Under the pieces are notes generated by a model. The model was given only the letters and a program-made list of their open reading frames with translations, searched no databases and had not been told where the DNA came from. A stretch of DNA of 64,000 nucleotides, from contig NZ_DS990556.1 of NCBI RefSeq assembly GCF_000155635.1, positions 1,727,079 to 1,791,078 of the forward strand. The letters run 5' to 3'. Below, in pieces: positions 5,196 to 56,854 of the stretch. Position numbers and translations under genes: made by a program. Positions within the stretch are counted from its first letter, which is position 1; each line of letters opens with the position of its first letter. The DNA is from Cyanobium sp. PCC 7001 (GTDB taxonomy: Bacteria > Cyanobacteriota > Cyanobacteriia > PCC-6307 > Cyanobiaceae).

Positions 5196-5558
5196 ATGTT
5201 CGTGCTCTCCGGCTACGACGCCTTCCTGGGCTTTCTGCTGATTTCCGCCGCCGTTCCCGTTCTGGCTCTGGTGGCCAACAAGCTGCTGTCCCCCGACAGC
5301 CGCCAGGGAGAGAGGGAGCTCACCTATGAGTCCGGCATGGAGCCGATCGGCGGAGCCTGGATCCAGTTCAACATCCGCTACTACATGTTTGCGCTGGTCT
5401 TCGTCATCTTCGATGTCGAGACCGTGTTCCTCTATCCCTGGGCCGTGGCCTTCCACCGCCTCGGCCTGCTCGCCTTCATCGAAGCCCTGGTGTTCATCGC
5501 CATCCTGGTGGTGGCCCTGGCCTACGCCTGGCGCAAGGGCGCCCTCGAATGGAGCTGA
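5196..5558 (+). CDS. ndhC: NAD(P)H-quinone oxidoreductase subunit 3
   Basis: NdhC is a membrane subunit of the photosynthetic NDH-1 complex that takes part in cyclic electron flow and respiration. The 120-residue protein starts [13 protein letters not shown] and has three transmembrane helices. The family signature [22 protein letters not shown] spans about residues 45-66, and [12 protein letters not shown] follows. It begins a ndhC-ndhK-ndhJ operon divergent from rubA. Confidence 0.96.
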
Positions 5559-5569
5559 CGGATCCCACC

Positions 5570-6388
5570 ATGACCCTCACCCCCTCCTCCTCCAGCCCCA
5601 GCATCGACGCCCTGCGGGACGTCCGGGCGGCCAGCTGCGGGCCTGTCGGCTCCCCGGCGGTCACCTCCGATCTCTCGGAGAACGTGATCCTCACCACGCT
5701 CGACGACCTGCACAACTGGGCGCGGCTGAGCAGCCTCTGGCCCCTGCTCTACGGCACGGCCTGCTGCTTCATCGAGTTCGCGGCCCTGATCGGCTCCCGG
5801 TTCGACTTCGACCGCTTCGGCCTGGTGCCGCGCTCCAGCCCACGCCAGGCCGATCTGCTGATCGTGGCCGGCACCGTGACCATGAAGATGGCCCCGGCCC
5901 TGGTGCGGCTCTATGAGCAGATGCCCGAGCCCAAGTACGTGATCGCCATGGGCGCCTGCACCATCACCGGCGGCATGTTCTCGGCCGACTCCACCACGGC
6001 CGTGCGCGGCGTGGACAAGCTGATCCCCGTGGATCTCTACCTGCCCGGCTGCCCTCCGCGGCCGGAGGCGATCTTCGATGCGGTGATCAAGCTGCGCAAG
6101 AAGGTGGGCAACGAGGCCCTGGCCGAACGGGGCAGGATCCTTCCCACCCACCGCTACTGCACGGTGGCCCACCAGATGAAGGCGGTGGAGCCGATCGTGA
6201 CCGGCGCCTACCTGGCCGCTGAAACCCAGCGCCAGGCTCTGGCGGCCGCCGCCGGCCTGCCGCTCGGCACCCTCCGCGAGGAGGACGCCGCGGCCAAGGC
6301 GGCCATCGACGCCGCGTCGAGCCCCGCCGTCCAACCCTCCGCCAACAGCCCCGACTCCGACAGCCCCGCTTCCCAGACCGATGCCTGA
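5570..6388 (+). CDS. ndhK: NAD(P)H-quinone oxidoreductase subunit K
   Basis: NdhK carries the N2-type iron-sulfur cluster of the NDH-1 peripheral arm. Cluster ligands are visible in [10 protein letters not shown], in [10 protein letters not shown] and in [11 protein letters not shown] chose the ATG at 5570 (MTLTPSS); an ATG at 5549 would overlap ndhC by 10 bp and is possible. The last ~40 residues are a disordered Ala/Ser/Pro tail. The gene overlaps ndhJ by 8 bp. Confidence 0.94.
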
Positions 6389-6938
6389 GTCCTCCCCCAC
6401 CAGCGACGCCATCGCGGCCGTGGAACCCGGCCCAGTGAGCCAGTGGCTGCGGAGCCAGGGTTTCGACCATGAGGTTCTCCCTGCCGACCACCTCGGCGTG
6501 GAGGTGATCGGCGTGGAGCCGGCCTTCCTGCCGGTGCTGGCCACGGCCCTGAAGGCCCACGGCTTCGACTACCTCCAGTGTCAGGGCGGTTACGACGAGG
6601 GCCCCGGCGGCCGGCTGGTGAGCTTCTACCACCTGGTGAAGCTGGCGGTGCTGGCGGAGCAGAGCGCCGCCACCCCCAAGCTGCCCAGCGACGTGCGCCC
6701 CCAGGAGGTGCGTCTGAAGGTGTTCCTCGCGAGGGACGGCGATCTCACCATCCCCAGCCTCTACGGCCTGTTCCGCGGAGCGGACTGGCAGGAGCGCGAG
6801 ACCTTCGACATGTACGGCATCCAGTTCGCGGGGCATCCCCATCCGAAGCGGCTGCTGATGCCGGAGGACTGGAAGGGCTGGCCGCTGCGCAAGGACTATG
6901 TGCAGCCTGACTTCTACGAAATGCAGGACGCCTACTAG
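6381..6938 (+). CDS. ndhJ: NAD(P)H-quinone oxidoreductase subunit J
   Basis: NdhJ (185 residues) is a hydrophilic subunit of the NDH-1 connecting arm, homologous to the 30-kDa subunit of complex I. The family signature [17 protein letters not shown] lies near residues 138-154, followed by RLLMPEDW and the C-terminal [17 protein letters not shown]. It is the last gene of ndhCKJ. Confidence 0.95.
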
Positions 6939-6958
6939 GCACCCTCACTGAGGCACAT

Positions 6959-7768
6959 TCAGGGCACGAAGTGCCGCGGCCGGCGGGGTCCGCCCCGCCG
7001 CACCTTCTCCACGCTGAGCTCCCCGTCCAGCAGCCAGGGATAGAAGAGGCGGAAATCCTCGGCGTAACGCCGGCGCAGCAGGGCCACCAGCTCGGGCTGG
7101 GCCAGCAGGGCCTCCAGATCCGCCGTGTCGCCGCCGCGGCGGCTGTTGCGGGTGCCAAGACGCCGGGGCAACCCCTGCACACCGGCGCGCCGGGCCTTGC
7201 GCACCAGGAACGGCCAGTGGTCCTCCAGGCTCTCGGCGTAGGCCACCCAGGTGGGCACGGGCTCGTCCCCGAGGCAGAGGATGTCGCTCTGGGGCAGCAC
7301 ATGCACATCCAGATCGTCGCTGGAGGCGGCGCACACGCAGGCGAGGAACTGGGGCAGGGGCATACCGTGACGCACGCCGATGGCCTTCAGCCTGGCGGTG
7401 CAGTCAGGGATTTCGATCACTTTGTTGTTGTAGGCCGAGAGCACCCGGTCGAACGGGTTGCGCACCACCGCGAAGCTGAAGCACTGGCCGCGCAGGGCAC
7501 GCGCCGTGTCCCGGTCCACCGGGTTGGCGATCGCGCCCGGCAGCCGCTCCCAGTACTCATCCATCCGGCAGGACAAGCCCAGCCAGGAGCGGCTGGGCCA
7601 GAGCCGATGCAGCAGCCGCTGGCGCAGGCTCTGGCGTGAGTGTCGCAGCTCCGGGCGGATCAGAACGGTGAGGGCCGCCTTGACGCTGCTGTTGGCGGCC
7701 TTGGGAACGCGGCCGTAAAGCAGGTGGTGGCCGGGCAGGTGAAGGAAGTGCTGGTCGGAAGCCGCCAT
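6959..7768 (-). CDS. Sulfotransferase family 2 protein
   Basis: The 269-residue product looks like a carbohydrate-type sulfotransferase that uses PAPS. The 5'-phosphosulfate loop is seen in YGRVPKAANSSVKAAL near residue 18, and the 3'-phosphate motif in FAVVRNPFDRVLSAYNNK near residue 100. It has no signal peptide. A plausible acceptor is a surface polysaccharide, but nothing in the neighbouring ndh and yvcK genes specifies it. It converges on ndhJ with a 20-bp gap. Confidence 0.8.
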   Translation of the reverse strand: MAASDQHFLHLPGHHLLYGRVPKAANSSVKAALTVLIRPELRHSRQSLRQRLLHRLWPSRSWLGLSCRMDEYWERLPGAIANPVDRDTARALRGQCFSFAVVRNPFDRVLSAYNNKVIEIPDCTARLKAIGVRHGMPLPQFLACVCAASSDDLDVHVLPQSDILCLGDEPVPTWVAYAESLEDHWPFLVRKARRAGVQGLPRRLGTRNSRRGGDTADLEALLAQPELVALLRRRYAEDFRLFYPWLLDGELSVEKVRRGGPRRPRHFVP

Positions 7769-7777
7769 GGGCGGAGA

Positions 7778-9106
7778 CTACACGGCCCTCACGGCGGCCC
7801 GGTGGCGGCGGTAGAAGCGCATCACGGCCACCGCCAGGCTGCGGGGATCGTGCCGCAGGGTGGCGGTGGGCCGGCCCCCCTGCAGGGCCGCCTGCATCAC
7901 CTCGTAGCCCAGGCGCTGCAGCTGGCGCACGTCGCAGCGCACCGGCGTGGCTCCCTTCTGGCGGTAGCGGTCCAGCAGCGGTGTGTCCTCCAGATCCTCC
8001 TGGGCCAGCACCGCCGTGAACAGGCGGTCCTGCACGCCGAGGGTGGCCAGCTGGGCCTCGATCGCCCGCAGGTGCCCCTCCACATCGAGGCCATCGGTCT
8101 CGCCCGGCTGGGTCATCAGGTTGCAGATGTAGAGCCTCGGTGCCTTGCTGCGGGCGATGGCCGCCACCAGCTCCGGCACCAGCAGGTTGGGGAGCAGGGA
8201 GGTGTAGAGGCTGCCCGGGCCCAGCACGATCAGATCGGCATGGGCGATGGCCTCGAGCGCCCGGGGCAGGGCGGGGGGGCGCTCCGGCGTGCAGCCCAGC
8301 CTCACGATCCGGCTGGAAGCATGGCCGATCGCCGATTCCCCCTCGAGCCGCTCGCCGTTCTCCAGCTCGGCCCAGAGGCGCACGTCGGCATTGGTGGCGG
8401 GCACCACCTGGCCCTGCACCGCCAGCACGCGGCTGCTGGCGGTGATCGCCGACTCGAGGCTGCCTGTGATCGCCGTGAGGGCGGAGAGGAAGAGGTTGCC
8501 GAAGCTGTGGCCCTCCAGGCCGTTGCCCGCCTTGAAGCGGTACTGGAACAGACGGGTGAGCAGGGGCTCCTCCCTGGCCAGGGCGGCGAGGCAGTTGCGG
8601 ATGTCGCCGGGGGGCTGCACGCCCAGCTCCCGCCGCAGCACGCCGCTGCTGCCGCCGTCATCGGCCACGGTGACGATCGCCGTGAGGTTGCTGCTGTAGC
8701 GCTTGAGGCCGCTGAGCAGGGTGGAGAGCCCGGTGCCGCCGCCCACCGCCACGATGCTGGGGCCGCGGTTGAGCCGGCCCTGGGCGGCGAGGGCATCCAC
8801 CAGATGGGTGCCGCGATCGGGGGCCAGGGCCTGCTGGATGGTGCCGAAGCTGCGGCTCTGGCCCAGCCAGATGAGGGCGGCCCCGATCGCCAGCACCAGG
8901 GGACCGGTGATGCCGCGCGGCAGCACGGTGGTGATGTTCTTCAGCAGCCACTGGATGCCGGCGATGGTCCAGTAGATCGGCTGCAGATCCGCCCACACGG
9001 CCGCACCCAGCAGGGCGATCAGCAGCCCGAGGCCGGAGGTGAGCACCCAGCGCTTCACCACCAGACCCGGCTGCAGCCAGCGCACGGCACGGCGCGAGCG
9101 GCTCAC
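7778..9106 (-). CDS. yvcK: YvcK/CofD-like gluconeogenesis factor
   Basis: YvcK-family proteins bind UDP-GlcNAc and influence carbon partitioning and cell-envelope growth. Motifs include VAVGGGTGLSTLLSGLK, TVADDGGSSGVLRRELG, PPGDIRNCLAAL and LGPGSLYTSLLPNL. Two hydrophobic segments occupy about residues 20-80, as in cyanobacterial homologs that are membrane-tethered. The start is taken as GTG at 9106, and the open frame continues upstream, so the N-terminus is uncertain. The sulfotransferase gene follows 9 bp downstream. Confidence 0.86.
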   Translation of the reverse strand: MSRSRRAVRWLQPGLVVKRWVLTSGLGLLIALLGAAVWADLQPIYWTIAGIQWLLKNITTVLPRGITGPLVLAIGAALIWLGQSRSFGTIQQALAPDRGTHLVDALAAQGRLNRGPSIVAVGGGTGLSTLLSGLKRYSSNLTAIVTVADDGGSSGVLRRELGVQPPGDIRNCLAALAREEPLLTRLFQYRFKAGNGLEGHSFGNLFLSALTAITGSLESAITASSRVLAVQGQVVPATNADVRLWAELENGERLEGESAIGHASSRIVRLGCTPERPPALPRALEAIAHADLIVLGPGSLYTSLLPNLLVPELVAAIARSKAPRLYICNLMTQPGETDGLDVEGHLRAIEAQLATLGVQDRLFTAVLAQEDLEDTPLLDRYRQKGATPVRCDVRQLQRLGYEVMQAALQGGRPTATLRHDPRSLAVAVMRFYRRHRAAVRAV

Positions 9107-9310
9107 CAGATCGCGCTGGCGCAGTTCACCGCGCCCGACCCAGCTGGCCCGTGATCCGAACCGGCGGGACCGGCGCGGCCGGGGAGCCGACGCTGGGGAA
9201 GGGGTGGGCGTGGCTGAGGTGGGGATGCTGGGGTGACTGTAGGAGCAGTGCCCGGTGTCAGCTCTGGCAGACCCTGGCCCTGGAAGGCGTCAGGATGGCC
9301 CGGTGACGCT

Positions 9311-10123
9311 GTGATCCGCCTGGCTGCGACCGCCCCGCCCCAACCAGCCACGCCCCTGGTCGAACTGCAGAACCTCAGCGTGCGCTGGGGACGCAACACC
9401 GTGCTGGATGGGGTCAGCCTCACGGTTCAGCCGGGTGAGCGGCTGGTGGTGGTGGGGCCCTCGGGGGCGGGCAAGTCCACGATCCTGCGCCTGCTCGCCG
9501 GCCTGCAGCTGCCCAGCAGCGGCCGGCTGCTGCTGCATGGCCGCCCCCAGACCTACCTGCGGCTCGACCAGCACAACCCCCCGGACGTGCGCCTGGTGTT
9601 CCAGAATCCCGCGCTGCTCGGCTCCCTCACGGTGCGGGAGAACGTGGGCTTCCTGCTCTACCGGTTCGGCCGGCTGCCGGAGGCCGAGATCCGCCGCAAG
9701 GTGGCCGAGGCCCTGGAGGCGGTGGGCCTGGGCGGCATCGAGGAGCGCCTGCCCGGTGAGCTCAGCGGCGGCATGCAGAAGCGCGTGAGCTTCGCCCGCG
9801 CCCTGATCTCGGCCCCCCAGAAGGACGAGGACCAGATGCCGCTGCTGCTGTTCGACGAACCCACCGCCGGCCTCGATCCGGTGGCCTGCACCCGGATCGA
9901 GGATCTGATCGTGCGCACCACCGCGGTGGCCCAGGCCAGTTCGGTGGTGGTGAGCCATGTGCACAGCACGATCGAGCGCACCGGCGGCCAGGTGGTGCTC
10001 CTCTACGACGGGGCCTTCCGCTGGAGCGGCGACCTGGAGGCCTACCGACACACGGACAACCCTTATGTGGTGCAGTTCAGGAGCGGTAGTCTGCGCGGGC
10101 CCATGCAACCGGCCGAGGCCTGA
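9311..10123 (+). CDS. ABC transporter ATPase of Mla/lipid-transport type
   Basis: This is the ATPase of a predicted Mla-type lipid importer that maintains outer-membrane asymmetry or moves lipids between membranes. It shows Walker A GPSGAGKST, the signature LSGGMQKR and Walker B LLLFDEPTAGLDP, close to MlaF. I chose the GTG at 9311, which begins directly before the ABC domain; an upstream in-frame GTG at 9233 would add 26 unrelated residues. The next gene encodes an MlaD-like substrate-binding subunit and starts 3 bp after the stop. Confidence 0.87.
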   Translation: MIRLAATAPPQPATPLVELQNLSVRWGRNTVLDGVSLTVQPGERLVVVGPSGAGKSTILRLLAGLQLPSSGRLLLHGRPQTYLRLDQHNPPDVRLVFQNPALLGSLTVRENVGFLLYRFGRLPEAEIRRKVAEALEAVGLGGIEERLPGELSGGMQKRVSFARALISAPQKDEDQMPLLLFDEPTAGLDPVACTRIEDLIVRTTAVAQASSVVVSHVHSTIERTGGQVVLLYDGAFRWSGDLEAYRHTDNPYVVQFRSGSLRGPMQPAEA

Positions 10124-10126
10124 TTG

Positions 10127-11176
10127 ATGCGCCGCTCCGTGCGTGAGGCGATTGTGGGGTTCTCCCTGCTGGCAGCCGTGGCCGGCGCCGTGGGGTTCTC
10201 CCTGTGGTTGCGAGGGTTGTCGCTGACGCGCCAGTTCTGGACGGTGGAGGCCAGCTTCAACCAGGCCGCTGGCCTGGCGGCGCGCTCGCCGGTGGTGTTC
10301 CGGGGCGTGATGGTGGGCAGCGTGCGCTCGGTGCGGGTCACGCCGGAAGCCGTGATCGCGGAACTGGAGATCACCAATCCCAGCCTGAAGCTGGCGCTGC
10401 CGGCGAAGGCCGTGGTGGGCCAGGGCTCCCTGCTGGGGGGCGAGGCCCAGGTGTCGCTGGTGAGCACGGGCACACCGATGGAAACGTCGGCCCCGAGTCC
10501 GCGCTCAGCGGACTGCCCCCGCACCCGCATGCTCTGCAACGGTTCCCGGATCAAGGGCAGCGAGGAACCCACCCTCGGCTCGGTGATCAGCCGGATGGAG
10601 GCCCTGCTCCAGCAGGGCGACAAGGAACAGCTGGTGCAGAAATTCGCCGGTGTGGCCTCCAGCGTGGACAAGACGTCCAAGGACGCCGCCGCCTTCCTGG
10701 AGGAGGGCCGAGCCCTGGTGGGCAGCCTGGAGCAGTCGGTGCAGGAGGTGCAGCCCACGATCGCCAACCTCAACGCCAGCTCCGCCCATCTGCGCCGCCT
10801 GATGGCTGCGCTGGAGAACCCCAAAACCGTGGCCGAGCTGCAGCAGACGGTGAGCAACGCCGAGCAGCTCACCGCCCGCTGGGATGCGGTGGGGGGCGAT
10901 GTGAACAAGCTCACGGCCGATCCACGCTTCATGGACGGGCTGCGCAGCGTGGCGGTGGGGCTGGGGGCCTTCTTCGAGGAGCTCTATCCCGCCCGGACGG
11001 CAGCCGCCCAGGACAAGGCGGAGCGGGAGCGGGCGGCCAAGGGGAAGGGGAAGGAGAAGGAGACCGCTTCAGGGAAGGCCACAGGACAGGGTTCAGGCGC
11101 CCCGACCGAAGCAGCACAACAGGGCCGGTCCAGGGGCACCAAGCCCAAGGCCTTCCCGATGCCGTCGGATCCCTGA
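10127..11176 (+). CDS. MlaD-family (MCE domain) lipid transport protein
   Basis: The 349-residue product has an N-terminal transmembrane anchor (IVGFSLLAAVAGAVGFSLWL) and an MCE domain at about residues 38-115 (ASFNQAAGLAARSPVVFRGV, then VGSVRSV). A helical region follows, and the C-terminal ~55 residues are Lys/Glu/Gly-rich and likely disordered. It would hold lipids in the periplasm for the ATPase encoded just upstream. No permease (MlaE) gene lies next to the pair, so that subunit must be elsewhere. The ATG at 10127 is preferred over the adjacent TTG at 10124. Confidence 0.86.
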   Translation: MRRSVREAIVGFSLLAAVAGAVGFSLWLRGLSLTRQFWTVEASFNQAAGLAARSPVVFRGVMVGSVRSVRVTPEAVIAELEITNPSLKLALPAKAVVGQGSLLGGEAQVSLVSTGTPMETSAPSPRSADCPRTRMLCNGSRIKGSEEPTLGSVISRMEALLQQGDKEQLVQKFAGVASSVDKTSKDAAAFLEEGRALVGSLEQSVQEVQPTIANLNASSAHLRRLMAALENPKTVAELQQTVSNAEQLTARWDAVGGDVNKLTADPRFMDGLRSVAVGLGAFFEELYPARTAAAQDKAERERAAKGKGKEKETASGKATGQGSGAPTEAAQQGRSRGTKPKAFPMPSDP

Positions 11177-11191
11177 AGGCCGACCTCGGCC

Positions 11192-13336
11192 TCACACCCC
11201 GCTGATCGCCTCCATGGCGATGGCGGCGATCGCCTGGTCGCTGGCCTTGGGCAGCTGAACGTATTTGCCGCCGGCCGCCTGGGCCAGGTCCTTGCCCATG
11301 CCGCTGCCGATGAACTTGCGCTCGGTGTCGATCACCAGCAGCTTGATGCCCAGGGCCCGGTAGCGGCTGGCCACCTGCTTCACCTCCTCCTTGAGGTCCA
11401 CCGGCTCCTCCCCCTCCAGCTCCGGCTGGCCCAGGGAGCGGCTGAGCGGCACGTTGCCGCGGCCATCGGTGATCGCCACCACCACCACCTGGCCCAGATC
11501 GCCGGTGGCCAGGGCGTTGGCGGCCACCCGGGCCGCCTGGGAGAGGCCGTGGGCCAGGGGGGAACCGCCGCCGCAGGGCATCGATTCGAGCCGGCGGCGG
11601 GCGGCGGTGATCGAGCGGGTGGGGGGCAGCAGCACCTCGGCCTGCTCGCCGCGGAAGGGGATCAGGGCGACTTCGTCGCGGTTCTCATAGGCCTCGGTGA
11701 GCAGCCGGATCACGGCACCCTTGGCGCTCTGCATGCGGTTGAGGGCCATCGAGCCGCTGGCATCCACCAGGAAGATCACCAGGGCGCCGGCCTTGCGCTG
11801 CAGCTGCTTGGCGCGCAGATCGCCGTCCTCCACCACCACCCGGCGGTGGGGTTCCCGCTCGCGGCGGGATTTCTGGTACGGCGCCGCCGCCCGCAGGGTG
11901 GCATCCACGGCGATGCGCTTCACCGGCCCGCGGGGCAGCATCGGCTTCACGTAGCGGCCGCGGGAGTCGCTGAACACCACGGCGCGGCTGCCGCTGCCGC
12001 CGCTGCGGGCCTTGGCGGCGCCGAAGAGCAGCAGGTCGGGGTCGATGGCCACGGCCTCGGGATCGAGCATGAACTCCTCGGGCACCGAGGGGGGGGGCTG
12101 ATCCTCGGGGGTGTCGTCCTCGTCCTGATCCTGGTCGTCGTTCTGGTCCTCGTCCTGGTCCTCCTCGTCGGGGTCCTCCTGCTCGTTCTGCGGTGGCTCG
12201 GGCTCCTGCTCGGGCGGTTGCTCCCCCTGGGGCGGCGGTGGTGGCGGCGGCTCCAGCGGCTGATCGGGATCGGGCGGCGGCATCTGGCGGGCCCGGGGCG
12301 CGATCACCAGGCGCACGGCCACCTGCAGGTCGTCGGCATCGACGCGATCACGGCCGCTGAGGGCGGCGTGGGCCCGGGCCACCCGCACGGCGTAGAGCTC
12401 GGAGCGGTGCCCCTCCACACCGCCGCGCAGGGCCTCGTTCACCAGATAGGCGATCTGCTCGCGGCTGATCTGCACATCCGGCAGCCACTGGCGGGCCAGC
12501 AACAGCTGGGTGGCGAGGGCATCGGTTTCCTCCTGCCAGCGGCCGCGGAAGCTGTCGCTGGATTCGGCATGGTCGAGCGCCGAGCGGGTGATCGCCACCC
12601 GCTGCTCGAGATCCAGCACCTGGTTGGCGCTGAGGGCGATGGCGAAGCGATCGAGCAGGTGGTCGCGCACCGCCCCCTCCTCGGGGTTGTAGGTGGCGAT
12701 CAGCAGGCAGCGGCAAGGGTGGGAGAGGCTGAGGCCCTCCCGCTCGATCCGGTTCTCGCCGCTGCCCACCGCCGCCAGCAGCAGGTTGGTGATGCTGTCG
12801 TCGAGCAGGTTGAGCTCATCCACGTAGAGCACACCGCGGTGGGCCTCGGCGAGCAGCCCCGGCTGGAACACGGCCTGGCCGCTGGCCAGCGAGGCGGTCA
12901 CGTCCACCGAGCCCACCAGCCGGTCTTCGGTGATGCCCAGGGGCACCTGCACGAAGGGGGCGGGGATCACCCGGGTGGGCAGCAGGGCATCGGCAGCGCT
13001 GCCGCTGGGATCGGCGCCGAGCTGCTGCAGGCGCTCGCGGATGGTGGCGTCCCAGTCCTCGGGGCGGCGGGGATCCACGTTGAGGGCCTGGGCGGGGGCG
13101 CTGCCCAGATCGAGCACATCGATCGGCGGCAGCAGGGCATGGAGGCCGCGGGCCAGCACCGACTTGCCGGTGCCGCGGCCGCCGGCGATCACCACACCGC
13201 CGAGGCCCGGGTCCACCGCCGCCAGCAGCAGGGCCAGCTTCAGGGTGCCGTGGCCGGTGATGGCCGCCAGCGGGAAGGAGCGGGCACCGTCCTGGCCGGC
13301 CTGGGCCGAAGGCGCTGCGGAGCCGCTGACAACCAT
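11192..13336 (-). CDS. chlD: Magnesium chelatase subunit D
   Basis: ChlD works with ChlI and ChlH to insert magnesium into protoporphyrin IX, the first committed step of chlorophyll synthesis. The 714-residue protein has an N-terminal AAA+ domain (degenerate P-loop [13 protein letters not shown], then [11 protein letters not shown]). An acidic/proline-rich linker spans about residues 350-405 (tracts such as [18 protein letters not shown]). The C-terminal VWA domain has a MIDAS motif, [13 protein letters not shown]. Length and architecture are normal. It is transcribed alone, converging on the mlaD-like gene. Confidence 0.95.
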
Positions 13337-51647: not shown

Positions 51648-52006
51648 AGGAAAGGATCGGATCGGGGGAACAAGCCGGGTACGCGGCCCGGGACGCCGGC
51701 AAGGTGATCCAGGGGAGGATCGCCTCAGGCCAGCTCGAGGCCGCTGCATGCTCCTGACCGATCAGACCGTCGGCGGCTGCACACCGCTGAAGACCTGGGG
51801 CCGAAACCTGTCGCGTTCACCTCGGCAGGGCTTACGGATGGGAATGCCGCCGGGGTACCGGAGGATTCCAGGCCAACCTGCTGTCTGGGGTTGGGCGCGT
51901 GCCCATCTGGCCAATAGAGGCCAGCAAATCACCTTACCACCACAGCTGTTCTTTGCTTTTCAGAAATCCAGGCTTGAATGGGCTTCGTCTTCGCAGCAAA
52001 AGCACC
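51648..52006. promoter_or_regulatory. 359-bp intergenic region: probable rplJ leader and divergent promoters
   Basis: The gap separates rplJ (minus) and the 66-residue peptide gene (plus). The part near rplJ is long enough for an L10-type autoregulatory mRNA leader, which normally precedes rplJ, but I could not verify the kink-turn elements by eye. The part near the peptide gene (about 51925-51995) is clearly less GC-rich, with runs such as ttctttgcttttcag, and is the best place for its promoter. No strong ribosome-binding site precedes the ATG at 52007. Confidence 0.45.
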
Positions 52007-52207
52007 ATGGACAACCTGTTCGGTTTCAAGCTGATGGTTCGCCAGCCCCACGACGCCGCGGCCATGCAGGGCGCAGCCGAGTCGGTTGGCCTGCGCTCCG
52101 CGGTCAGCGCCAAGTTCGGCACCGAGCCCCAAACGACCGCCTGCACCATGAGCTCTTCGGTTTCCGCCAAGGTGGGCGGTGAGCCCACGGGCGCCCAACG
52201 TCGCTGA
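52007..52207 (+). CDS. 66-residue peptide with repeated motif, candidate RiPP precursor
   Basis: The peptide begins MDNLFGFKLMVRQPHD and has an N-terminal helix-prone part (~1-30) and a C-terminal part with two copies of an 11-residue motif, SAVSAKFGTEP (31-41) and SSVSAKVGGEP (50-60). The copies are 19 residues apart and separated by QTTACTMS. The tail is TGAQRR. This leader-plus-repeated-core layout is typical of ribosomal peptides with multiple modified cores. The next gene, starting 16 bp later, encodes an HExxH peptide-hydroxylase-like enzyme. I do not recognise the peptide family; a non-modified small protein remains possible. Confidence 0.62.
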   Translation: MDNLFGFKLMVRQPHDAAAMQGAAESVGLRSAVSAKFGTEPQTTACTMSSSVSAKVGGEPTGAQRR

Positions 52208-52223
52208 CGAACCTCCGGGATCC

Positions 52224-53258
52224 GTGCCGGTGACGTCGCACCCAAACCTGGCCGACGACGCCGTCCTGACAGCCTGTGTCGAGCACAATGCTCGCAAGGG
52301 GGAGCACGATCTGCTCGACTCGTTCCAGCAGTTGAGCAACGCTGCTCCCCAGCTGAACCTCGGCCCACTCGTGCTGGCCCTGCGACAGCGGCTGCAGGCA
52401 GCCCACAGCCCCCTCTCCCCGTGGGTGTATCTGGGCTACTACCTCCTCGGCCGGCAGATCCTCACCGGCCAGGGTGACCTTCTTCCCAGGTTCCACGACC
52501 TCCTCCTCGCTGAGATCGAGCGCCCCCAGCCGGTGGGCCAGATCGTGGAGTTCTGGAACCCGGCCCGGGCGGACCCGGCCCTCTGGCAGGCTGCCCTCGA
52601 CCTCTTTCAGGAAGGCGGCGACTTCTCTGGCGGCATGGAGCCACCTTCCGCCGAGGTGGGGGATCAGTACCGGACGGTGATTCCCGAAGCCCGCGGTCTG
52701 ATCCGGACCCTCGATCCCCCCCTGGCAGACCTGATGGACCGGCTTCAGCCGCTGCTGGTGCTCTGCGCGCCAGGCTCCAACGCCCGGTTCAGCGGAGAGG
52801 GCTTCGGCAATGCCACCTGCTTCTTCTTCCGCGGCGCCAGCCTCTTCAACGCCTCACGGCCCACGAATCCCATCCAGATGACGGAACGCCTGGTGCATGA
52901 GTATGCCCATGCGGAGCTGTTCGTGCTGGCCCAGGACGGTCCGCTCTGTCTGAATGGTGATGACGAGCGGCACAGCGTGAGGATCCGGCCGGACCCACGA
53001 CCGATGAACGGCATTCTTCACGCTCTGCATGTGGTGTCCAGGGTGTGCCCCGTGCTGCAACGGGCGCTGAGCCGCGGCATCCCCCCGAGCGATGCGTTCG
53101 AAGAGCTCACCGCTTCCTGCAGGCTGCTCATCGCCCAACAGCAGGAGTACGGAGCCTCCTCGCTCGCCGTGATCCGGAGCCATGCCCAGCTCACAACCCT
53201 GGGGGAGGCGGTGGTGGAGGCGGCAGCGGCCCGGCTGGCCAGCGGCGTGCCGGCCTGA
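52224..53258 (+). CDS. HExxH protein, likely alpha-ketoglutarate-type peptide beta-hydroxylase
   Basis: The ~344-residue protein has the metal motif HEYAH at residues 225-229 (context RLVHEYAHAELFVL), then DGPLCLNGDDERHSVRIRPDPRPMNGILHALHVVSRV with candidate third ligands at His266 and His269. This pattern matches the HEXXH putative peptide-modification family (TIGR04267-type), members of which hydroxylate Asp/Asn/Lys side chains in RiPP precursors. No zinc-protease features beyond HExxH were seen. I chose GTG 52224; an in-frame GTG at 52179 would overlap the peptide gene, and one at 52230 is also possible. It is followed by acyl-activation genes. Confidence 0.72.
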   Translation: MPVTSHPNLADDAVLTACVEHNARKGEHDLLDSFQQLSNAAPQLNLGPLVLALRQRLQAAHSPLSPWVYLGYYLLGRQILTGQGDLLPRFHDLLLAEIERPQPVGQIVEFWNPARADPALWQAALDLFQEGGDFSGGMEPPSAEVGDQYRTVIPEARGLIRTLDPPLADLMDRLQPLLVLCAPGSNARFSGEGFGNATCFFFRGASLFNASRPTNPIQMTERLVHEYAHAELFVLAQDGPLCLNGDDERHSVRIRPDPRPMNGILHALHVVSRVCPVLQRALSRGIPPSDAFEELTASCRLLIAQQQEYGASSLAVIRSHAQLTTLGEAVVEAAAARLASGVPA

Positions 53259-53275
53259 ACTCCGGCACAGCAGCC

Positions 53276-54829
53276 ATGGCTCCTGCCCTGATCCGTCAGC
53301 TGAAGCGCGACACCGCACGGACCCTCGGCCGGAATCCCGCCGAGGTGATGGTCGACTGGGCGGGGCGTCCAGTCACGGCGGCGGAACTGCTGGAGCGGTT
53401 GCAGGCGGAGTGCGCCTGGTTCGAGGCCTGGCGGGCCATGTTCAAGGACGGATCCAGCCCCTGCATCGCCCACCTTGCCCCGGATGGCCTGCCCCTGCTG
53501 ATCAGCACGATCGCCTGCCTGCTCAGCGGAGTCAGGCAGGCGATCGTGCCCCACGATGCCTCCAGCGTGGAGCGCGCCAGCCTCGCTCAGCGGTACGGCC
53601 TCACCCACTGGCTGGTGGGCCAGGCGTGGCAGGGCCGGACTTCTGAGCTGGCGGGGGAAGGGGACTGGGAGGGCGCCCCCGCCAGTCCGGAGCAGTTCGA
53701 CGTGGTGCCGCTCTCCGCAGGTCTCCAATCCGATGGTTCCCCCGAGGCCCATGCCGCCTTTGGAGAAGCGGAGGAGGCCCTCCTGCTCTCCACCACCTCG
53801 GGAACCAGCTCAGGGCGCCCCGGCATCAACCGAACGACCGCCTCCCAGATCCTGAGCGGTGTGCAGCGGCTGGACTGGTCGCCCTATCAGCTGCTGCACA
53901 GACCCCTGCTCGGACCCGGTCTGCAGCACCACAGCTCCCGGCTGTTCAAGCTGACATGCGTCATGCAGGGGACTGGCCTGGTGGTGCGCGATCCCCTCGC
54001 TCCGATCGGCCCGGATGTGCTCGCCCAGGGCTGCACCGGCACGCCGATGGCGCCACTGGCCCTGCGACGGCGGCTTGAGGCAGGGCAGCTGGATCGGCTG
54101 CCCGGTTCCTTCCTCGTCGTCACAGGGGCCGACCGGGTGCCGATGGCCCTGCGGGAGGCCGTGCGGCGGCTCCACAGCTGCAGCCTGGGGATCACCTACG
54201 CCACCAGCCAGTGCGGCCCGATCAGCTGGCTGAGCCCCGAGGCGCTGCTGGACCACCGCGAAGGCCTGGGCCATCCGCTGGACAACGTGAGGCTGGCGCT
54301 GATCGGCGCGCCCCGACTGCAGCGTGATGGGCTCGGCTTCCACGAGGTGCTGGTCAGCAAGGTCACGCGCTGGCAGGTGGAGCGGGAGGGGGGCGGCATG
54401 GAGGTGCAGCAGGCCGTGCAGGAGCCGTTCAACCCGAACGACCTGATCGCCCGCAGCGCCGACGGCGCACTCATCTTCGGCGGCCGCTCCAACGACGTGT
54501 TTCTGTTCAGCTCCCTGCTGATTTCCCCCCTGGAGATCGAGGATGTGCTGCGCGCCGACCCGCGCGTGCGCGACTGCGTGGCGTTCGGAGCCAATTCCGA
54601 ACACTATGGTGCCGTTCCCATGGCGGCTGTGGTGCTGCAACCCCGGAGTGCTGCAGGGTCCGGTGACGGGGAGACGGCCACGCTGCTGGCCGCATTGATG
54701 GAGCGGTGCCGCACGGCTCTGGGCCCGCGGCGGCCGCACCGCATCGTGCCGCTGGAGGCGCTGCCGCTCGGCCCCACCGGCAAACCGCTGCGGCGGGTGC
54801 TGGCGGAACGCTTCGCGTTGCGCTCATGA
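53276..54829 (+). CDS. AMP-forming acyl-activating enzyme (acyl/aryl ligase)
   Basis: The 517-residue product belongs to the adenylate-forming ANL superfamily. The ATP loop is LLLSTTSGTSSGRPGINRTT (~165-185), in which the usual TGxPK is changed to SGRPG. Motif A5 reads YATSQCGPISWL. The hinge region is LIFGGRSNDVFLFSSLLISPLEIEDVL, and the C-terminal lysine is in LGPTGKPLRRVL, so the catalytic Lys is kept. It would adenylate a carboxylic acid, then load CoA or the neighbouring carrier protein. It starts 17 bp after the HExxH gene and overlaps the hydrolase gene by 4 bp, indicating one operon. Confidence 0.82.
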   Translation: MAPALIRQLKRDTARTLGRNPAEVMVDWAGRPVTAAELLERLQAECAWFEAWRAMFKDGSSPCIAHLAPDGLPLLISTIACLLSGVRQAIVPHDASSVERASLAQRYGLTHWLVGQAWQGRTSELAGEGDWEGAPASPEQFDVVPLSAGLQSDGSPEAHAAFGEAEEALLLSTTSGTSSGRPGINRTTASQILSGVQRLDWSPYQLLHRPLLGPGLQHHSSRLFKLTCVMQGTGLVVRDPLAPIGPDVLAQGCTGTPMAPLALRRRLEAGQLDRLPGSFLVVTGADRVPMALREAVRRLHSCSLGITYATSQCGPISWLSPEALLDHREGLGHPLDNVRLALIGAPRLQRDGLGFHEVLVSKVTRWQVEREGGGMEVQQAVQEPFNPNDLIARSADGALIFGGRSNDVFLFSSLLISPLEIEDVLRADPRVRDCVAFGANSEHYGAVPMAAVVLQPRSAAGSGDGETATLLAALMERCRTALGPRRPHRIVPLEALPLGPTGKPLRRVLAERFALRS

Positions 54830-55824
54830 GCCAGGCACCGGCGCTGCCTTGGGAGGATCTTGAATGGGAGTTGCGGGGAGAAGCCCCGGCCCGGTGGGTC
54901 TCGCGGTTGGCAGGGATCAGCCTGAACCGCCTGCATCAGCACCAGCTGGTGATCAACCGGTTTGCCACCGGTCAGCAGCTGAGGAAGCTACTGAAGCTTG
55001 CCCGCGCGCGCGGCATCAACTCCGAGTGGCGCCGGCAATGGGCCGCACAGTCCCTGCTCTATTCCCCCCGGTTACGTCAGCAGGGCCCCCGGTACCGCCG
55101 GATCGACCATCCGGCCGCCAACCACTGGATCTCCCATTACCGCAGCCTGGATCGGGCCGGGGCAGCACAGAGGCCCGGGAGTCAGCGCCTCCGACGCCAT
55201 CTGGTGATCGGCTTCACGGGCAACCTCGGCCTGCTGATGGCTCCTATCCCCTACGTGCTGAGCGCCCTCGACGCCAGCGGTTATGACCTGCTGCTGGTGC
55301 GACGCCACAGCCTGGCGGGCTACTTCTCCCAGAACGGCCAGGTGCTCCTGGAGATCGAGCAGCACCTTCGCCGGCTGCTGCAAGGCCTTCAGGCCAAGGG
55401 GCTGGAGACAGAACAGATCTGCAGCCTGGGCACCAGCAGCGGAGGCCTGCCGGCCCTTGTGGTCGCCCGCAACCTGGGGTTGCCGCTCGGTATTGCCATC
55501 GGGGCTGGAGCCAGCCCGCCCCTGCTTGAGCCGGGCGGCCTCCTCGATCGGCTTCAGCCCGTCCGAACAACCGGAACCCCGCAGGATCACACCACCGACC
55601 TGATCCTGGCGTTCGCCGCAGAGAACGGCCAGGACAGCACTTGTGCCGAGCTCCTCCAGCACTACTACCGGGCGCGGCAGTGGCTGCAGGTCACACCGTC
55701 GCCCAGGGCCTATCCCGGCTGCGCAGCCCACGCCCTGTTCATTGATCTCGTGGCTCAGGGCTGCACACTTGATCAGGCGCTGAGCGATCTGCTGGCCCAT
55801 CCCCCTAGGGATCCTGGGGCCTGA
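54826..55824 (+). CDS. Alpha/beta-hydrolase-like protein
   Basis: The 332-residue product has a probable alpha/beta-hydrolase core from residue ~125: strand HLVIGFTGNLGLLMAPIPYVL, nucleophile elbow SLGTSSGGLPALVVARNL (Ser204 in GxSxG), and a C-terminal His candidate in PGCAAHALFIDLVAQG. The first ~120 residues are helical and basic. The closest roles in such a setting are thioesterase or acyltransferase acting on a carrier-bound acyl group; this is inference from context. Its 3' end overlaps the convergent carrier-protein gene by 20 bp. Confidence 0.68.
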   Translation: MSQAPALPWEDLEWELRGEAPARWVSRLAGISLNRLHQHQLVINRFATGQQLRKLLKLARARGINSEWRRQWAAQSLLYSPRLRQQGPRYRRIDHPAANHWISHYRSLDRAGAAQRPGSQRLRRHLVIGFTGNLGLLMAPIPYVLSALDASGYDLLLVRRHSLAGYFSQNGQVLLEIEQHLRRLLQGLQAKGLETEQICSLGTSSGGLPALVVARNLGLPLGIAIGAGASPPLLEPGGLLDRLQPVRTTGTPQDHTTDLILAFAAENGQDSTCAELLQHYYRARQWLQVTPSPRAYPGCAAHALFIDLVAQGCTLDQALSDLLAHPPRDPGA

Positions 55825-56125
55825 GCCGGGCGATCAGCTCCTGCACGGTCTGCATGCCCAGCAGGTCCGCTGGCGTGATCACAACGCCGTGGTCGAGCTC
55901 GAGGTGGATGCAGAGCTCCATGGATCCCAGGCTGTCAAGCCCAAGGCGCTGCATGGGGATGGAGGCCAGGTCTCCCTGCAGGTCAGTCTCGATGGCGCCC
56001 AGGTCGGACGGCGGGATCGACAAGGCCTGCAGAGCAGACATCAGGCGGGCTACGCCCGCCTGGTTGGCCTCCGCCCCAGGGGGCGGGGGATCTGTCTGCT
56101 CGGCCGCTGGTCGCCCCTGTTCCAC
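55805..56125 (-). CDS. Acyl carrier protein
   Basis: The product contains a phosphopantetheine attachment site in RLGLDSLGSMELCIHLE (Ser65 if read from GTG 56125). A helical carrier fold follows (VVITPADLLGMQTVQELIARL). From GTG 56125 it is 106 residues; an internal ATG at 56041 would give 78 residues, the usual ACP size. The gene lies 21 bp behind rplA on the same strand with no terminator between, and its end overlaps the hydrolase gene. The ligase and hydrolase on the other strand are its likely partners. Confidence 0.83.
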   Translation of the reverse strand: MEQGRPAAEQTDPPPPGAEANQAGVARLMSALQALSIPPSDLGAIETDLQGDLASIPMQRLGLDSLGSMELCIHLELDHGVVITPADLLGMQTVQELIARLRPQDP

Positions 56126-56146
56126 GAGCCCGTCACGGTGTTGATG

Positions 56147-56854
56147 TCAGCCCTCCTGCTTGAGGTCCTGCAGCGCCGAGAAGTCCACCTGCACCGAGGG
56201 GCCCATGGTGGAGGTCACGTACAGGGAGCGCCAGTAGCGGCCCTTGGCACCGCTGGGCTTGTTGCGGTCGATGGTCTCCTGCAGGGCCTTGAGGTTCTCC
56301 AGCAGCTTGGTGGGCTCGAAGCTGGCCTTGCCGAAGCGCACGTGCACGATGCCGGTGCGGTCGGCGCGGAACTCCAGCTTGCCCGCCTTGAACTCGGCGA
56401 TGGCGCCGGCCAGATCGGTGGTCACGGTGCCGGCCTTGGGGTTCGGCATCAAGCCGCGGGGACCGAGCACCCGGCCGAGCTTGGCCACCTTGGGCATCAT
56501 GTCGGGGGTGGCGATCAGCAGGTCGAAATCCATGGCACCGCCGGCGATCTGATCCACCAGATCGTCGTCGCCGGCCAGATCGGCACCGGCGGCCTTGGCG
56601 GCGGCCACGGCCTCACCGCGGGCGATCACGGCGATGCGGATGCTCTGGCCAGTGCCGTGGGGCAGGGCCACGGTGGTGCGCAGTTGCTGGTCGGTGTACT
56701 TGGGATCGATGCCGAGGCGCACATGGGCCTCGATCGTTTCGTCGAACTTGGCGTTGGCGTTGGCCTTCACCAGTTCGATGGCCTCCAGGGGCTCGTAGGC
56801 GCGCTCGGCGACCTTGGCCTGGAGGGAGGAAAAGCGCTTGGAAACGTTGGGCAT
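56147..56854 (-). CDS. rplA: Ribosomal protein uL1
   Basis: uL1 forms the mobile L1 stalk of the large subunit and commonly represses its own operon. The 235-residue protein starts at ATG 56854 ([15 protein letters not shown]) and contains [55 protein letters not shown] and the C-terminal [10 protein letters not shown]. It is normally followed by rplJ; here a carrier-protein gene follows. Confidence 0.97.

Follow-up and report, generated by a model that had tools for sequence, protein, structure and literature searches.

A putative gene cluster for a hydroxylated and perhaps acylated RiPP between rplA and rplJ of Cyanobium sp. PCC 7001

Pathways of the NRPS and PKS type possess stand-alone modules made up of an adenylation enzyme, a carrier protein and a thioesterase. 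Among the enzymes that modify ribosomal peptides, those of the aKG-HExxH family beta-hydroxylate His, Asp, Phe, Gln and Pro residues of precursor peptides (PMC13060819, PMC12636437), and PflC/PosC, which belong to this family, also cleave the peptide backbone (PMC12636437). Partners recorded for HExxH enzymes in RiPP biosynthesis include radical SAM, MNIO, nitroreductase and asparagine-synthetase-like proteins (PMC12636437, PMC13060819). RiPPs lipidated by GNAT enzymes are also known from cyanobacteria (PMC13060382).

Here we describe a five-gene locus from a 64,000-nucleotide stretch of the Cyanobium sp. PCC 7001 genome (hereafter, the window), in which a short peptide and an HExxH protein are encoded beside an AMP-forming ligase, an alpha/beta-hydrolase-fold protein and a carrier protein. 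We read it as a cluster for a RiPP that would be hydroxylated and then acylated by the latter trio, and we place the probability of this whole reading at roughly 60%; that the product is a hydroxylated RiPP is, judging from family membership and conservation, very probable. The locus shares with ChlBH, BpmH, PflC/PosC and PesO the enzyme family, the fold, the metal signature and the pairing with a precursor, and beta-hydroxylation would be expected from that likeness (PMC12636437, PMC13060819). Unlike the HExxH enzymes of known systems, that of the window is not fused to a radical SAM protein, has neither MNIO nor nitroreductase in its cluster, and is partnered instead by ligase, carrier and hydrolase; its precursor also differs from the leader of NHLP type that was reported for the pfl system. 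A second likeness is to the selidamides and GNAT-lipidated RiPPs (kamptornamide, nostolysamides), in that a RiPP is thought to be acylated, possibly on Lys. Unlike the selidamide loci, the window cluster has no lanthionine synthetase and no GNAT (a GNAT gene is present in one related cluster, L023, and a remnant in another, L008), and the acyl group would come from a ligase and carrier dedicated to this purpose. The separate adenylating ligase, carrier and alpha/beta-hydrolase resemble the stand-alone modules of NRPS/PKS pathways as these are generally described; unlike such modules, they are placed with a ribosomal precursor and a hydroxylase, and the insert contains no condensation or ketosynthase domains. 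Finally, ATP-grasp ligases of the graspetide/cyanophycin-synthetase type, which are used at the related loci L009 and L071, are absent from the window insert.

The five genes occupy an insert of 4,220 bp between rplJ and rplA, both on the minus strand (the rplA stop lies at 56147), compared to 64 bp in the nearest congener, G002 (blastn). Homology to G002 breaks at position 51926 and restarts at 56147, the G002 rplA gene being 97% identical; in blastn alignments of four cluster-free congeners to the window, the right-hand alignments restart at 56147 in all and the left-hand ones end between 51904 and 51926. Among the 12 congeners with an rplA match, rplA and rplJ are adjacent in nine, about 250–340 bp apart, and the cluster is present in three (the window, G004 and G005). 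The rplA–rplJ junction is a patchily filled slot, here containing a metabolic island within the ribosomal operon, and the alignment to G002 bears out the placing of these genes inside that operon by an earlier, sequence-only reading of the window. All five genes named in that reading (66-aa peptide, HExxH protein, AMP-forming ligase, hydrolase and carrier) were found at the positions it gave (Table 1), and with the spacing it described: 16 bp from the peptide stop to the HExxH start codon (GTG 52224), 17 bp from the HExxH stop to the ligase, and an ATGA overlap between ligase and hydrolase. Use of the alternative in-frame GTG at 52179 would make the HExxH gene overlap the peptide gene. The hydrolase and carrier genes are convergent and overlap by 20 bp at their 3' ends. 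Scanning the region with Rfam produced no match at E <= 0.1, promoter and terminator consensus scans of it produced nothing useful, and the cluster contains no gene for a leader protease or an exporter.

Table 1. Features of the rplA–rplJ insert, in window coordinates.
Feature	Position	Strand	Basis or remark
Whole insert	51927..56146	.	From rplJ leader region to rplA stop codon
Precursor peptide, 66 aa	52007..52207	+	Counterparts adjoin HExxH in L006, L007, L008, L023, L024, L025
Leader-like motif LFGFKL	52016..52033	+	LFGF[KQR]L in all 7 cluster peptides
Core repeat 1, SAVSAKFGTEP	52097..52129	+	[ST]xx[ST]AK[VIMF]G..EP common to orthologous peptides
Core repeat 2, SSVSAKVGGEP	52154..52186	+	[ST]xx[ST]AK[VIMF]G..EP common to orthologous peptides
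aKG-HExxH peptide beta-hydroxylase (predicted)	52224..53258	+	GTG start 52224; alternative GTG 52179
Divergent AMP-forming (adenylating) ligase	53276..54829	+	PF13193 40 bits; PDB profile matches
Alpha/beta-hydrolase-fold protein, putative thioesterase/acyltransferase	54826..55824	+	Structure model and invariant triad
Carrier protein (PP-binding)	55805..56125	-	PF00550 35 bits, cut-off 20.8

The peptides have no usable match in Pfam or NCBIfam. At all seven loci the orthologous peptides carry LFGF[KQR]L near the start, followed by one to three repeats of the form [ST]xx[ST]AK[VIMF]G..EP, some of them degenerate; in the window peptide the repeat is present in two copies, S[AS]VSAK[FV]G[TG]EP. 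LFGF[KQR]L occurs seven times in 467,622 residues of six-frame translation, once in each peptide of the seven clusters. A chance origin of the peptide reading frame is excluded by its conservation in six other genomes. Two features by which a RiPP cluster is recognised are in evidence at 7/7 loci, namely a short precursor conserved beside a modifying enzyme and composed of a leader-like segment and core repeats. Conservation of the peptide next to the HExxH gene, on which the sequence-only reading turned, thus holds throughout the close loci, and an altered form of the peptide adjoins more distant HExxH genes (see below). L008 also contains a second precursor-like reading frame (LGFKL...TSKVGGLEP; L008:782–925) between the first peptide and the HExxH gene.

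The HExxH protein scores 87 bits against TIGR04267 (IPR026337; cut-off 40) and matches ChlH with an E value of 0.0015 (phmmer), its RxDxRPxxGxxHA signature aligning with that of ChlH; HExAH and RxDPRPMxGxxH are invariant across ten HExxH homologues. The AlphaFold2 model (pLDDT 86.2, pTM 0.87) has as its best Foldseek match the HExxH domain of ChlBH (8s5f; E 2.6e-12, TM 0.65/0.70) and as its second SjiH (22ob; E 2.9e-6), with the next match at 0.63. By sequence and modelled fold the protein is an aKG-HExxH peptide beta-hydroxylase, its activity being predicted, and it groups, as had been proposed, with the peptide hydroxylases, no metalloprotease being found among the significant fold matches.

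The families that had been assigned to the HExxH, ligase and carrier proteins from the letters of the sequence were likewise right (TIGR04267, AMP-binding_C PF13193 and PP-binding PF00550), and the alpha/beta-hydrolase, which matches no Pfam or NCBIfam family, was recovered as a fold in its structure model. Among PDB structures, MenE and fatty-acyl-CoA ligases were matched by a profile built on the ligase, with a best E value of 2.3e-18; the ligase has no match to PF00501 at E <= 1, and a related ligase of L023 matches that family marginally. The SGT loop, GRxND and the C-terminal GKxLR are invariant across seven ligase sequences, as is the C-terminal Lys503. Other core motifs are altered, with YATSQ in place of the usual YGxTE and no Lys after the SGT loop, and these unusual motifs mean that ligase activity is not assured. 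The hydrolase model (pTM 0.79) has 880 PDB matches at E <= 0.001, the matches listed being alpha/beta hydrolases; Ser204, Asp270 and His302, assigned as the catalytic triad from their invariance and order, are unchanged in seven sequences. In the carrier, the serine of [DE]SLG (Ser65, the phosphopantetheine site) is invariant in 7/7 aligned sequences.

The rplA–rplJ junction of six other genomes carries the gene set as well, these being L006 (G362), L007 (G005), L008 (G004), L023 (G079), L024 (G342) and L025 (G337), the contigs of L008 and L024 covering the rplA side of the junction only. All five genes are contained in one insert in six of the seven genomes, which are related, such that these counts are not independent. 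The L006 insert comprises peptide, HExxH and ligase only; its carrier–hydrolase pair is located on another contig and is of the type seen in G178 (hydrolase 66% identical), and this genome has one ligase of the cluster type. In samples of 300 genomes of the family, strong ligase and hydrolase matches fell in the same five genomes, and in the window, L008, L023, L024 and L025 both genes lie directly 3' of the HExxH gene, overlapping or nearly so. Identities of the HExxH, ligase, hydrolase and carrier proteins correlate at 0.93–0.96, but this depends on one close pair (L024–L025) and is given no weight here. The rplA–rplJ insert of L023 also encodes an additional ligase and an acetyltransferase of the GNAT type, beside a transposase-like reading frame (L023:4486–8051), and broken remnants of both genes persist in L008; this is consistent with the loss of parts of an acylating pathway from the window cluster. 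A gene for an amino-acid ABC transporter, with binding protein fused to permease, is found between the peptide and rplJ in L023 (12997–14538) and was not seen in the other clusters examined. Elsewhere, the neighbourhood of a CTP-synthase gene in G178 (L047:7861–12035) contains genes for carrier, ligase, hydrolase and ATP-grasp proteins, with no HExxH gene and no peptide of the cluster pattern; hence the trio can serve another acceptor.

Precursors of a related kind are found beside more distant HExxH genes. A search with the relaxed pattern of GF followed by [SATQ]K[VIMF][GA] retrieved 20 reading frames from 314 kb, and ten Markov-shuffled copies of the same 314 kb returned 0, 1, 0, 5, 0, 0, 0, 0, 1 and 1; one of the 20 (L009 6771–7100) resembles a chance match. 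L026 and L071 each have four such precursors beside the HExxH gene, L009 has two and L028 has one. The L026 cluster (G180; 5275–11728), which is related to that of the window but distinct, has its four precursors (GFS...[SA]KIGxGEGG) upstream of the HExxH gene, followed by a fused AMP-ligase–carrier gene that overlaps the HExxH stop and by an ATP-grasp gene. Comparison of the C-terminal domain of the fused protein with the hydrolase family by profile was not significant and it matched no PDB chain, and so a fused counterpart is claimed for ligase and carrier only. In L009 and L028, from the same family as the window, and in L071 (G434), from another family of the class, the precursors have the form L[HL]GF ... 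K[VI]G and an ATP-grasp ligase replaces the trio. L071 (5825–9806) has four precursors (KLLGF...QAKIG) upstream of its HExxH gene and a cyanophycin-synthetase-like ATP-grasp, and L009 (5759–9582) has an HExxH gene, two precursors (HGFRL...AKIG) and a convergent ATP-grasp gene of the same kind. What is constant across the precursor loci is the HExxH protein, the GF segment and the K-[VIMF]-G segment. A TIGR04267 search of 194 genomes of the class found, among the loci inspected, a precursor at L071 and none at L072–L075, and L027, whose HExxH belongs to the distant group, has no precursor of the pattern. Taken together, the conserved precursor, the family assignment of the HExxH protein and the related precursors at distant HExxH loci support well a RiPP cluster with a peptide hydroxylase.

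We propose that the precursor is recognised through its N-terminal LFGFKL segment and that the HExxH enzyme, as an iron/alpha-ketoglutarate oxygenase, binds it and would beta-hydroxylate residues in the core repeats, most likely within the invariant K-[VIMF]-G segment or at the EP proline. A carboxylic acid would be adenylated by the ligase and loaded on the carrier protein, from which the hydrolase-fold enzyme would pass the acyl group to the peptide by a Ser-His-Asp mechanism; the acceptor may be the new hydroxyl, giving an ester, or the invariant Lys, giving an amide. For this sequence of loading and transfer we consider the chances about even. Perhaps the trio acylates the peptide, which is the best reading of the gene order, the co-occurrence of the genes and the fused ligase–carrier of L026. 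Leader removal and export would fall to genes elsewhere, because none are present in the cluster.

Several other explanations were weighed against this. The peptide reading frame might be an ordinary small protein, or spurious, with the cluster devoted to non-peptidic metabolism; the peptide's lack of a family match is compatible with that, but the motif and repeats at 7/7 loci and the tandem precursor arrays of L026 and L071 leave it scarcely credible. A processing rather than oxidising role for the HExxH protein, as a metalloprotease, is suggested by the HExxH sequence itself, which is the zincin motif, and by the hydrolytic action of the related aKG-HExxH enzyme PflC on a leaderless substrate (PMC12636437). 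Set against the 87-bit TIGR04267 score, this is very improbable, and it was rejected on fold, the only significant matches being the ChlBH HExxH domain and SjiH, with no zincin protease among them.

More serious is the view that peptide and HExxH enzyme constitute the entire pathway and the trio, merely sharing the locus, makes a separate small molecule. Such a division would accommodate G178, where trio and ATP-grasp occur in the absence of HExxH or a recognisable peptide, and the L006 genome, where the carrier and hydrolase are unlinked from the peptide. We nonetheless think it unlikely, since five clusters (the window, L008, L023, L024 and L025) have ligase and hydrolase directly after the HExxH gene, six genomes keep the five genes in a single insert, and the fused ligase–carrier gene of L026 overlaps the HExxH stop. 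A different question concerns the acceptor. Our preferred reading, hydroxylation followed by acylation, includes a sub-case that differs from the ester model, in which an amide is formed on the Lys of AK[VI]G, through the carrier/hydrolase trio in the window and through the ATP-grasp ligases of L009, L028 and L071, and a neighbouring residue is hydroxylated. None of the precursors found lacks the Lys of K[VIMF][GA], though the partner ligases differ, and GNATs are known to acylate Lys residues of RiPPs (PMC13060382); the sole enzyme common to all loci is HExxH, however, and the target or recognition site of that enzyme may thus be what the invariant segment represents. As a complete account of the family, with the amide made in these two ways, we regard the Lys version as rather unlikely.

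No description of this five-gene set was found in the openly licensed literature, which is weak evidence of absence. It is possible, and we advance it tentatively, that the cluster represents a new class of RiPP, in which aKG-HExxH hydroxylation would be followed by acylation of the new hydroxyl or the conserved Lys by a stand-alone adenylation–carrier–thioesterase module, within a wider cyanobacterial GF...AK[VI]G family in which the second tailoring enzyme would have been exchanged between this module and ATP-grasp ligases. If true, the modification of ribosomal peptides would be joined to carrier-protein chemistry, and acylation would proceed with a dedicated acyl supply instead of a GNAT using cellular acyl donors. 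A defined precursor would also become available for an orphan subfamily within the young aKG-HExxH family. As members of the precursor family occur in two or more cyanobacterial families, alongside second enzymes that differ, the K-[VI]-G site and its role can be tested by comparison.
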